From an uncultured Lentisphaerota bacterium (GTDB taxonomy: Bacteria > Verrucomicrobiota > Lentisphaeria > Oligosphaerales > CAITYL01): a DNA stretch of 64,000 nt. The stretch is taken from the NCBI GenBank assembly GCA_903921725.1, contig CAIXRA010000072.1, forward strand, positions 62,001 to 126,000, written 5' to 3'. Made by a program: the position numbers and the translations under genes. Every line of letters starts with the position of its first letter. Positions within the stretch are counted from its first letter, which is position 1. Under the pieces are notes generated by a model. The model was not told the DNA's origin. It made no database searches and was given only the letters and a program-made list of their open reading frames with translations. Below are positions 3,513 through 7,690 of this stretch, piece after piece.

Positions 3513-3911
3513 ATGATCTTTGGTGGCAATCCTCACTCGTCGGCAATGGACGGATGGCGCAGGCACGCCTCCAAGGTTCTCGACAAACTTAACTCATTGC
3601 CGCCCAACCGAAACAATGCACCCGTCCCTAATATTTGTTCGGCGTCGGCCGTCAAGCTCGGCATCCGGTTGCAGGGCGGGTATGTGACGGAGACTTGGAA
3701 GAACGGCGATAGCCGGCGGAAGGTGTCGGCGCTGTTTCGCCGGGCCGGATTCCGGGCGCCGGGCAAGAGCGAGATCGTGCAGCCGCCGCGGCCGGCATTC
3801 GCCCCGTTCTACGCGGCGCGCAAGGACCAGATCGTGCAGATCCTCACCGACCGGCTGCTCTACAAGATCCGCGAAGGCCGGCAACGTGCCAGCACGTCGG
3901 CGGCGGCATGA
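3513..3911 (+). CDS. Phage virion morphogenesis / tail-completion-like protein, possibly truncated
   Basis: C-terminal segment FRRAGFRAPGKSEIVQPPRPAFAPFYAARKDQIVQILTDRLLYKIREG resembles gpS/HK97 gp10-like tails; N-terminal half unrecognisable; followed by two more tail-like genes on the same strand. Confidence 0.4.
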   Translation: MIFGGNPHSSAMDGWRRHASKVLDKLNSLPPNRNNAPVPNICSASAVKLGIRLQGGYVTETWKNGDSRRKVSALFRRAGFRAPGKSEIVQPPRPAFAPFYAARKDQIVQILTDRLLYKIREGRQRASTSAAA

Positions 3912-3917
3912 CACCAT

Positions 3918-4074
3918 TTAGCCACAGAGGGCACAGAGGACACAGAGGTTTAATGGAAACCGGCGGCTCGCGTGAAACAACGGAGACTCCGACCGAACAC
4001 GCCATTCAAAATAGTCTACAGTGAAGATTGATCGTGCCTGAATACTCTGTGTCCTCTGTGCCCTCTGTGGCTAA
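3918..4074. repeat. Perfect 30-nt inverted repeat (TTAGCCACAGAGGGCACAGAGGACACAGAG) with about 97 nt loop
   Basis: Arm 1 at 3918-3947; exact reverse complement at 4045-4074. Confidence 0.95.
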
Positions 4075-4086
4075 AAGGAGTTTCCC

Positions 4087-4596
4087 ATGAGTCTCTTCCT
4101 CTTCAATCTGACGCAGGCGCGGAACAAGATCGGCGGCTGGCTGGCGGCGAACGCGGCCATTGCGGCCTGGTGCCAGGCGAAGTACGGCAAGGCACCGAAG
4201 GTGATCTGCGGCATTGAGCTGCTGGACCAGGCCGGAGAGGCGGACGCGCCGTTTATCCGCTTCGACATCGGGAACCGGTCCGGCGGCCAGGTCAGCGGCG
4301 AGCACGGCCTGGAACTGATCTTCCAACTCGGGATCGTGAACCAGGAGACGGAACGGCAGCCGGTGACGGATGCCGGCACGGGCGGAACGTTCGAGGTGCT
4401 GCCGGGCGTGGCGGAGATGATGGACCTGATCGAGCTGGTGACGCAGGAGATGGACAAGAGCCTGTCCAGCACGGTGGACATCGCGGATGCGGACTCCGCC
4501 GCGGACATCGTGGTTTCCAAGCCGCTCTATACCGGTCTGATCTCGTTCAACCTCACGGCGCCCAATGCGATGGGGCGGGCGCAGCAGGCTATTTGA
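4087..4596 (+). CDS. Putative phage tail terminator-like protein
   Basis: 169 aa, MSLFLFNLTQARNKIGGWLAANAAIAAWCQAKYGK...; position between a tail-completion-like gene and a tail-tube gene; size and context consistent with tail terminators. Confidence 0.5.
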   Translation: MSLFLFNLTQARNKIGGWLAANAAIAAWCQAKYGKAPKVICGIELLDQAGEADAPFIRFDIGNRSGGQVSGEHGLELIFQLGIVNQETERQPVTDAGTGGTFEVLPGVAEMMDLIELVTQEMDKSLSSTVDIADADSAADIVVSKPLYTGLISFNLTAPNAMGRAQQAI

Positions 4597-4642
4597 ATGC
4601 CCATATACGGTCCTACCAATATCCGTTTGGATTTTGAGGCAG

Positions 4643-5173
4643 TTACTGTTTGCCTATGAGTGGATGGAAGCGATCACGTAGGGCTGCTTCGAGTACCGGG
4701 GCTATGAGATCGTAGTTTGTAACATCTATCCTTATTGCATGAAGGCGAAAATGATACTTTTTCATTTCATGGCGTGCGTTTAGTTTGAGTGCAAATGTCG
4801 GTTTGTTTAGTGGGATCTCGATGTGTTCCAAGACTCTCGCTCCAACATTTTTTGACTTACCTAAATACAGGGGCATCCAATCGAGCAGCACTGTGTGACG
4901 TGCGATGCGTTTCTTCTTAAGATTAGGCGTGAATTTTTTCTTATAATCTTCATGCTCCCACTTACGGCGGAAATTTTCTATCCAATCAGTAATCGATATT
5001 GATGTCCCCTGTGTTGATATGTCAATTCTATAAATACCTTGATAATTTTGCTTTTTAATGATGTCTTTTTGTGTTGTATTACAGATCAATGGCATGTCTA
5101 TATCGTTCGCATTTTTTTTTAGTTTGCATAATATAGGCGTAAGCGACATGTCAATTTCTTTCATTTTATTCAT
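4643..5173 (-). CDS. GIY-YIG nuclease-like protein
   Basis: QGIYRIDI...WMPLYLGKSKNVGARVLEHI...PVLEAALRDRFHPLIGKQ matches the GIY / YhG / R / E layout of GIY-YIG nucleases; AT-rich gene. Confidence 0.6.
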   Translation of the reverse strand: MNKMKEIDMSLTPILCKLKKNANDIDMPLICNTTQKDIIKKQNYQGIYRIDISTQGTSISITDWIENFRRKWEHEDYKKKFTPNLKKKRIARHTVLLDWMPLYLGKSKNVGARVLEHIEIPLNKPTFALKLNARHEMKKYHFRLHAIRIDVTNYDLIAPVLEAALRDRFHPLIGKQ

Positions 5174-5235
5174 AGGTGTTTTCTTTTGATATGGTTGTGT
5201 TTTTTATGAAAAAATGTTTCTGCGCGGATTAACTA

Positions 5236-6321
5236 TTAAGCAAATGGGGAGTGTTTGTCGGGTAAAAAATCATAATGTTTCAAGAATTCCTCTTTGGTTT
5301 TACTCGTAACATCAGCCATACCATGGGTTGGTGGATGTTTATATGCTAATGGAAGTATAAAATGACCAAGTTGTCTCCAGTTTCCAGTCCAAGACTCTTG
5401 GGATAGCTCTTTAAACAGTCGAACTACGCATGAAGCCAAGCAATCCGCAGCACGAATTCCAGGGTACTGCACAACATCGCCCGATGAAAAGTTCTCGAAA
5501 TTTTTCAGACACTGCCTAATAGTTAGTCCGCCATCGGTATTCATATCTGGAGTATTTATGCGCAATTCGATAGTAATTTCCTTTATAAGTTCATCATAGT
5601 CTTTTATTTGGTGGTGAATTATGCTCATCTTCCCCTTATCATCAATAAATTCATCAGCTTTTACTGCCATGTGTTTATAGGCTGGTAAATTTAATGAACT
5701 CCACAATTTGTGTGTTGCGTTTTTTAAGTTCATGGTTTCATGGCTCAATATGTTATCAATATTATTTAATGCTGTTTCTATGGTTTCTTTTAGGCGTTCA
5801 TGGGCGACTGCAACGGCTTGTGATGCGCAAAGACGTTCAAGAAATCGGATATTGCAGCCTCTTTCTGTGTTCTTATATGCAGTCGCAAACATGTTAATTG
5901 TTTCATCATCGAGCGAAAGTGATAAAGAATTAGCAATACGCTTACGTTCTTCTTTTGCCGTCATTGGCAGCCATTTGGCATTTTGATTACTACGAGGATC
6001 ACAATAAAAATCAAGAATTCTACCGGCAAACGCTAATTTTTTCTCAAAAACCATAAAAAATGGAAAAATTGGGACGTCGTGTAGTAAATTAAAAAATTCA
6101 ACCAAATTCGCAAGTCCTCTATTACTATTCATTAGATCGGTTCCCTTTTGTGCCACGCCTTGGCGGTCAAATATGCGGGAACATGCATCATTTAGTTTTG
6201 CAATATTTTCGGATTTAACTAAAACACCAGCCGACACATAGAATGGTTGACCTGCATCCAAGTAGTTTGGGCCCGTATTACCAGACTCATCACAATATAG
6301 AGTCCATTGTGGTTGTGGCAT
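5236..6321 (-). CDS. DUF3800-like protein (DESG motif)
   Basis: N-terminal WTLYCDESGNTG and C-terminal GIRAADCLASCVVRLFKE match the DUF3800 pattern; AT-rich gene, upstream partner of the GIY-YIG gene. Confidence 0.72.
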   Translation of the reverse strand: MPQPQWTLYCDESGNTGPNYLDAGQPFYVSAGVLVKSENIAKLNDACSRIFDRQGVAQKGTDLMNSNRGLANLVEFFNLLHDVPIFPFFMVFEKKLAFAGRILDFYCDPRSNQNAKWLPMTAKEERKRIANSLSLSLDDETINMFATAYKNTERGCNIRFLERLCASQAVAVAHERLKETIETALNNIDNILSHETMNLKNATHKLWSSLNLPAYKHMAVKADEFIDDKGKMSIIHHQIKDYDELIKEITIELRINTPDMNTDGGLTIRQCLKNFENFSSGDVVQYPGIRAADCLASCVVRLFKELSQESWTGNWRQLGHFILPLAYKHPPTHGMADVTSKTKEEFLKHYDFLPDKHSPFA

Positions 6322-6370
6322 TGGTTAATCCTTTGTGATTAAAGTCTGTGCTATGTACTTGGCCGACTCG

Positions 6371-6390
6371 ATGCCTTTTATTAAAGGCAT
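6371..6390. promoter_or_regulatory. Perfect palindrome ATGCCTTT-TATT-AAAGGCAT upstream of the DUF3800 gene; candidate operator or 5' hairpin
   Basis: 8-nt arms, 4-nt loop, 50 nt upstream of the ATG at 6321 (minus strand). Confidence 0.5.
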
Positions 6391-6569
6391 GAAAATAATA
6401 GAGATTTTTTAATGTAATACGCGACAAGTGAGGCTGCCAGTCAAGCCGCCGCTGGCGGCGGTATTTAACCTGCAAAGATGCGCAATTCGATTGTGCCCGA
6501 TGGTAAACGGAAATACAGTTTCAGCAAAAGCCGAGGCCGTGCGCCTCAAGCAGCAAGGAGAATCTGACC

Positions 6570-7196
6570 ATGGCGATCAAGAAGGGTTATCTTTCCAGTC
6601 TCGGCATCGGCGTTGAACTCACGTTCGGCGCGGGTATCCCCGCCGGCGGCGCCGGGGCGATCCCCATCATTTCGCATTCGCTCAAGCGCAACGTCAATCT
6701 CACGACCTCCAACGTCATCCGCGGCAGCCGCAACCCGGCCGGGCCGGTGACGGGGTTTGTGGACGTGAGCGGCGACATCGTGGTGCCGGTCGGCTACACA
6801 TCATTCGGGGCGCTGCTCAACCTCATCGGCGGCGCGCTCGGCACGCTTTCCTTCGCCGCGCTCGACGCCCAGCCTTCGCTGGCCATCGTGGACGGTGGGG
6901 CCATGACCTACAAGGGGTGCAAGGTCTCCAAGCTGTCGTTCAAGTTCGGCGGCGACGGCGAGATCACGGCCACGCTCTCCATCATCGGCAAGGACGGGGC
7001 GGCCGGCGGCGTCGTCACGGGCGCGGCGGGTGCGATTGACCCGGTGCTGTGGAAGCATCTGACGCTCTCCCTGGGCGGTGCCAGCACGACGCAGATCGAG
7101 GAGATCAGCGTGGACGTGGATTTCGGGCTGGACGGCTCGGTGTACACCATCGGAGAGAACGGCACCCGCCGCGAAATCCCCGAGGGGCTGGCGTAA
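6570..7196 (+). CDS. Phage tail tube protein
   Basis: MAIKKGYLSSLGIGVELTFGAGIP...SHSLKRNVNLTTSNVIRGSRNPAGPVTGFVDVSGDIVVPVGYTSFGALLNLIGGALG; resembles the phage tail tube family with the dVsGdi motif. Confidence 0.75.
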   Translation: MAIKKGYLSSLGIGVELTFGAGIPAGGAGAIPIISHSLKRNVNLTTSNVIRGSRNPAGPVTGFVDVSGDIVVPVGYTSFGALLNLIGGALGTLSFAALDAQPSLAIVDGGAMTYKGCKVSKLSFKFGGDGEITATLSIIGKDGAAGGVVTGAAGAIDPVLWKHLTLSLGGASTTQIEEISVDVDFGLDGSVYTIGENGTRREIPEGLA

Positions 7197-7404
7197 ATTA
7201 GGGACGGGTGCATTATACCGGTTCGTTTCCAACGCCTTGCTATCTTGTTAAAAAATCACTGACGGGGCTCCGGTCTCGGAGGTTGGAGCTTGCCGGTTCC
7301 CGCAGCCTTCTCCTGAAACGCCTTGCGGCGTATTATAGCATATTATACACTGGAACCGCCGGTCTGGCAGGTCATGGGCACTCATTTCCACTTCGTTTGG
7401 GGCG

Positions 7405-7690
7405 GAACAATCCACGCCCTGAAAGGGCACGGGATGACAGCCCAGGGCAACGCCCTGGGTTGGATAAAGATCGAAGCGCCTACGCCCTGAAAGGGCAATG
7501 GAACGCATGAAGGGCCGACGGGGCAAGGTTCCATTGCCCTTACAGGGCGCAAATTTTATGGACGCCATATCCCAGGGCGTTGCCCTGGGCTTCCATCCAT
7601 TGCCCCGGTGGGGCGAGAAACCTCTTGTCGATGCCACACCCAGGGCGTTGCTTTGGGCTGTTCTCCGTTGCCCTTTGGGACGTAAGTCGC
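7405..7690. repeat. Cluster of REP-like palindromic units in both orientations
   Basis: CCCAGGGCAACGCCCTGGG at 7441-7459 and its exact reverse complement CCCAGGGCGTTGCCCTGGG at 7571-7589, interleaved with GCCCTGAAAGGGC / GCCCTTACAGGGC hairpins. Confidence 0.88.

Follow-up and report, generated by a model that had tools for sequence, protein, structure and literature searches.

We analysed a 64,000-nt stretch of contig CAIXRA010000072.1 from an uncultured Lentisphaerota bacterium (the window, to whose positions coordinates refer unless a locus is named) and found an AT-rich pair of minus-strand genes, encoding a DUF3800 protein and a divergent GIY-YIG-like protein, inside the remains of a prophage. 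The reading that we favour, at about even chances, is that the pair is a horizontally acquired accessory nuclease cassette, likely one operon, which lies antisense between two tail genes of the decayed prophage and is probably directed against phages or mobile DNA. We regard as established the foreign composition of the pair, the DUF3800 identity of one protein, the conserved GIY-YIG anchors of the other, the relic context, and the fact that some other DUF3800 genes of the phylum have defence-type neighbours.

Composition and arrangement of the gene pair

An earlier note, made from the sequence alone, had described two minus-strand genes between two plus-strand open reading frames (ORFs) and an AT-rich block with GC-rich sides; the four ORFs exist as claimed (Table 1), and the difference in composition was confirmed. 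The guanine plus cytosine (GC) content of the two genes was 0.38 and 0.385, compared with 0.62-0.67 in the flanking genes. At third codon positions (GC3), the values were 0.395 for the GIY-YIG-like gene and 0.312 for the DUF3800 gene, compared with a range of 0.79-0.93 across lexA, the phage-like genes and fba. This contrast with the surrounding genes indicates a separate, foreign ancestry of the pair, of which the low GC3 of both genes is a strong sign, and it bears out the earlier proposal that a probable nuclease pair was acquired at a site among phage tail genes. No direct repeat of at least 7 bp was common to the two junction regions of the block, and therefore no target-site duplication was recognised.

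On the minus strand, the DUF3800 gene comes first, with an AAAGGA ribosome-binding site preceding its ATG at 6321, and the gene for the 176-amino acid (aa) GIY-YIG-like protein follows. Since the two genes share a strand and are separated by a 62-bp gap, in which no terminator-like site was found, a single transcript is plausible; the genes probably form an operon, with co-transcription predicted from their layout. A perfect inverted repeat upstream of the DUF3800 start could, speculatively, serve as an operator for the pair.

Table 1. Positions of the gene pair, the phage relic and associated repeats in the window
Feature	Position	Strand	Evidence or remark
DUF3800 gene	5236-6321	-	361 aa; Pfam PF12686 4.1e-9, phrog_12991 1.1e-5
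Divergent GIY-YIG-like nuclease gene (probable)	4643-5173	-	176 aa; homologue anchors and profile matches
Gap between the GIY-YIG-like and DUF3800 genes	5174-5235	-	62 bp, both genes on the same strand
AT-rich inserted block	4597-6425		Both genes inside; composition
Tail-terminator-like phage gene (relic)	4087-4596	+	ORF intact; phrog_17431 9e-8; position upstream of the tube gene
Phage tail tube gene (relic)	6570-7196	+	Phage_tube_2 5e-30
Putative truncated phage neck/tail-completion gene	3660-3911	+	C-terminal part of ORF 3513-3911; inferred assignment
Perfect 8-bp inverted repeat ATGCCTTT-TATT-AAAGGCAT	6371-6390		About 50 bp upstream of the DUF3800 start
Dispersed host repeat copy AGGGACGGGTGCATTAT	3606-3632	-	One mismatch; left of the relic
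Inverted copy of the AGGGACGGGTGCATTAT host repeat	7197-7223	+	Directly after the tail-tube stop codon

The DUF3800 protein

The DUF3800 label of the earlier note was upheld by the Pfam search, in which PF12686 scored 37.7 bits against a cut-off of 21. The acidic motifs are intact, with DESG at residues 11-14 and AD at residues 292-293 (in RAADCLA), and we consider the family identity secure at the sequence level. The length of 361 aa results from a large insertion between these two motifs. The protein thus resembles the DUF3800 family, which includes the PADLOC candidate PDC-M04A and TPR-DUF3800, in both motifs and in an above-cut-off match, but differs in its length and long inter-motif insertion, in matching no PADLOC model and in having no adjacent CRISPR or restriction genes. 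Searches of 289 genomes of the phylum, 399 genomes of the Acidovorax phylum, phage records and viral contigs brought up no close relative, and the two genome sets and a plasmid collection gave weak partial matches at most. An RNase H fold has been reported for one family member from an AlphaFold2 model, and TPR-DUF3800 proteins have been linked to Cas12a2 (PMC10910872).

The GIY-YIG-like protein

The GIY-YIG label proposed earlier for the 176-aa protein stands on its homologues and not on a direct family match, as the window protein itself did not match PF01541 even at E<=10. Full-length homologues were found on a Variovorax paradoxus plasmid (42%) and in Acidovorax sp. sic0104 (37%), the latter being the only relative that a hand-made DNA pattern returned; back-translated patterns found nothing in viral contigs or genome contigs. 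In the three-way alignment of these proteins, G46, Y48, Y103, G105, R113, H117 and E162 were invariant, and in the window protein the anchors G46-I-Y48, Y103-L-G105, R113, H117 and E162 occur in the GIY-YIG-R-H-E order of the superfamily. The Pfam GIY-YIG model matched two of the three family members below threshold (best E = 0.12), whereas excinuclease Cho matched all three over the same stretch (E = 0.002 to 0.03). A comparison of hidden Markov models (HMM-HMM) with 18 GIY-YIG domains from related genomes gave 5e-5, limited to the YIG-R-H part. The ordered motif recurred in one of 100,000 shuffles of the sequence, a count that is optimistic because the motif expression was written with this protein in view. 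Taken together, the invariant anchors, the borderline profile matches, the HMM-HMM comparison and the shuffles led us to accept a probable assignment as a divergent GIY-YIG protein.

The GIY and YIG elements are separated by approximately 54 residues in the window protein, compared with approximately 10-12 in the UvrC domains compared, which suggests a divergent subfamily. Relative to the GIY-YIG superfamily, in which Cho/UvrC is the nearest profile, the protein also differs in its position below the Pfam threshold and in the C-terminal location of its catalytic core. No meaningful match was obtained in a sequence search of solved structures. No close relative was found in 388 sampled genomes of the phylum or in the phage collection; both window genes are thus patchily distributed.

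A precedent for a GIY-YIG nuclease in defence is CMoRE, in which a single GIY-YIG protein constitutes a complete defence against modified phage DNA (PMC12923530). The window protein is comparable to CMoRE and PD-T4-3 (PMC12923530) as a stand-alone GIY-YIG defence nuclease by analogy only, and it differs in carrying GIYRID and in having no C-terminal domain beyond the catalytic core. CMoRE and Cas12a2-DUF3800 are cited here as leads, and no membership is claimed for the window locus.

Neighbourhoods of related genes

The earlier note had placed both gene types in phage cargo and defence contexts in general, and defence contexts were seen for each of them within the phylum and within the genome itself. 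A second DUF3800 gene of the same genome has HsdS on one side and metallo-beta-lactamase-type genes on the other; HsdM and a GIY-YIG-like gene different from that of the window are nearby. This locus (L015, 1-8501, contig C3), with HsdM, HsdS, the second DUF3800 protein and a patatin-like protein, is a defence-type island; its two metallo-beta-lactamase-like proteins match PADLOC PDC-M48B, and its GIY-YIG-like protein matches PDC-S14 weakly. The type I restriction locus L015 resembles the window in that both gene types lie within approximately 5 kb. In contrast, both window proteins belong to different sequence families from those of L015, and in the phage relic the window pair is by itself, whereas the L015 genes lie among HsdM and HsdS. 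In another genome of the phylum (locus L091, 2705-5828), a restriction-type methylase, a GIY-YIG protein in a 307-aa frame and a uracil-DNA-glycosylase-like ORF lie side by side at a DUF3800 locus.

DUF3800 was present in 38 of the 241 genomes of the phylum that were sampled. When 96 neighbours of approximately 48 other DUF3800 genes were compared with defence models, PDC-M04B and type I, III and IIG restriction proteins came up most often, and MADS was also found among the neighbours of DUF3800 genes in the phylum. A GIY-YIG gene lay within 5 kb of DUF3800 at 2/51 loci of the phylum, against a rough expectation of about 1%, which is not strong evidence of linkage. One further regular-expression match to GIY-YIG near a DUF3800 gene (locus L059) was judged spurious.

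The two GIY-YIG relatives have different surroundings. The Acidovorax copy is adjacent to an HNH_5-like gene and a gene whose protein has a HEPN-like RNDLMH motif, and TniB/TniQ transposition genes are present in the region, while the Variovorax copy neighbours an IS481 transposase gene and a SUKH immunity-type gene. These differing neighbours argue that the nuclease gene is mobile and travels either by itself or with changing partners. The Acidovorax locus (L009, 2315-3514) encodes, upstream of the GIY-YIG homologue, a 399-aa protein that combines the RNDLMH HEPN-like motif with a CxxC pair and matched nothing in Pfam or PADLOC.

The phage relic and its flanks

Of the prophage, only a few genes are left, between lexA and an aldolase gene and bounded by host repeats; the earlier note had not recognised this context as a short relic. 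The phage tail-gene flanks claimed earlier held for the tail tube gene, the sole tube gene found in the genome; the terminator-like gene matches only phrog_17431, a phage family of unknown function. The ORF with the putative neck/tail-completion gene had no family match, and its 5' part contains a dispersed host repeat. To the left of the relic are lexA (Pfam) and an aldo/keto-reductase-like gene; to the right of the tube gene lie host repeats and two genes named from sequence alone, one aldolase-like and one protein-kinase-like. No chaperone, tape-measure or baseplate gene follows the tube gene. A genome of the same family, in which further tail-type ORFs, among them a tape-measure-like one, come after the tube gene, shows what the relic is missing. 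Since only relic phage genes remain, no working phage carries the pair at present, and carriage by a functional phage is not supported.

The inverted 27-bp repeats on either side of the relic might have been transposon ends, but this reading was rejected because the 17-mer AGGGACGGGTGCATTAT is present in nine copies genome-wide (one mismatch allowed), three of them in tandem near the end of contig C53 and the rest dispersed. Other repeats were also observed. At 3911-4081, just upstream of the terminator-like gene, a 37-nt inverted repeat pair of the CACAGAGGGCACAGAGGACACAGAG type, 97 nt apart, resembles a small non-coding mobile repeat. A repeat cluster around CGCCCTGAAAGGGCA and CCCAGGGCGTTGCCCTGGG occupies 7400-7680, and 7415-7459 on the minus strand resembles Rfam Acido-Lenti-1 (30.6 bits, below the 37-bit cut-off).

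Discussion

We consider nuclease action of both proteins on incoming nucleic acid, whether DNA or RNA, the most likely function of the pair. The GIY-YIG protein would nick or cut DNA, and cleavage of RNA or DNA would fall to the DUF3800 protein, whose family has an RNase H fold; the two might act independently or jointly. Catalytic activity, a functional link between the proteins and a role against mobile elements are what we infer. The pair is probably anti-phage or mobile-element accessory cargo of an already suspected kind, and a defence role is plausible from sequence.

Several results weigh against this reading. DUF3800 was found beside neither of the two GIY-YIG relatives (Variovorax and Acidovorax). 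PADLOC 2.0.0 gave no system-protein match for either window protein at E<=1. The restriction and defence enrichment around the DUF3800 genes of the phylum is only suggestive, because the counts have no matched control set. Single-sequence structure models were unusable for the DUF3800 protein (predicted local distance difference test, pLDDT, 36.5) and for the 176-aa protein (pLDDT 31), leaving the RNase H-like and GIY-YIG folds unconfirmed.

The first of these results bears directly on the strongest alternative, namely that the two are unrelated orphan cargo genes that happen to be neighbours in a hotspot and work alone, for example with the GIY-YIG protein as a stand-alone restriction-type nuclease. 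We regard this as a tentative but serious possibility. It accords with the other partners of the GIY-YIG relatives, with the DUF3800 genes of the phylum, most of which have no GIY-YIG gene nearby, and with the failure to find a close relative of the window DUF3800 protein in the genomes and plasmids sampled; in contrast, the shared strand, the short gap and the similarly low GC suggest joint arrival. Because the neighbours of the GIY-YIG gene differ from relative to relative, a fixed cassette of the two genes is not supported by the relatives found, and the conserved pair envisaged in the earlier note was not borne out. No paper naming DUF3800 and GIY-YIG together was found in the literature searched. 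The boldest version of the defence reading, in which the 176-aa protein is the first member of a distinct GIY-YIG subfamily marked by a large core insertion and joins the DUF3800 RNase H-fold protein in an undescribed two-nuclease defence system on mobile DNA, is doubtful.

An arrangement resembling a toxin-antitoxin pair or an RNA-linked toxin, in which one protein or a nearby RNA restrains the other, is unlikely. DUF3800 genes elsewhere are tied to structured RNAs, Rfam DUF3800-I and -IX (PMC11701678; association noted in PMC10910872), and the upstream palindrome could be an operator; however, no Rfam DUF3800 RNA was detected within 3900-7600 even at E<=10, both proteins look enzymatic, and no antitoxin-type protein was found.

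Phages commonly carry GIY-YIG homing genes, and the insertion spot is intergenic, between tail genes, as might be expected if a homing endonuclease module had moved itself into a conserved site among tail genes. This proposal, also made earlier, is very improbable for the window: no DNA-recognition domain was matched in the 176-aa protein, its relatives occupy unrelated, non-phage sites, none was found in phage or viral collections, and homing leaves the DUF3800 gene unexplained. Least probable of all is a misjoin of the AT-rich block to the contig, for which the sharp change in composition, the fragmented assembly (82 contigs) and the lack of an empty site with identical flanks at hand could be cited, but the flanking phage genes keep the expected order and orientation on both sides of the block, which is well inside a 127-kb contig.

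As it stands, the locus that we read as a probable accessory nuclease cassette is a further instance of accessory cargo in a decayed prophage. DUF3800 is widespread in the phylum yet officially still of unknown function, and the locus adds a DUF3800 gene that lies outside a restriction locus, beside a GIY-YIG-like subfamily missed by current profile libraries. Outside the window, this subfamily was found in distant bacteria, once plasmid-borne and once in an island rich in transposons. Should the proteins prove active, this compact and readily cloned pair would offer a test case for DUF3800 function.
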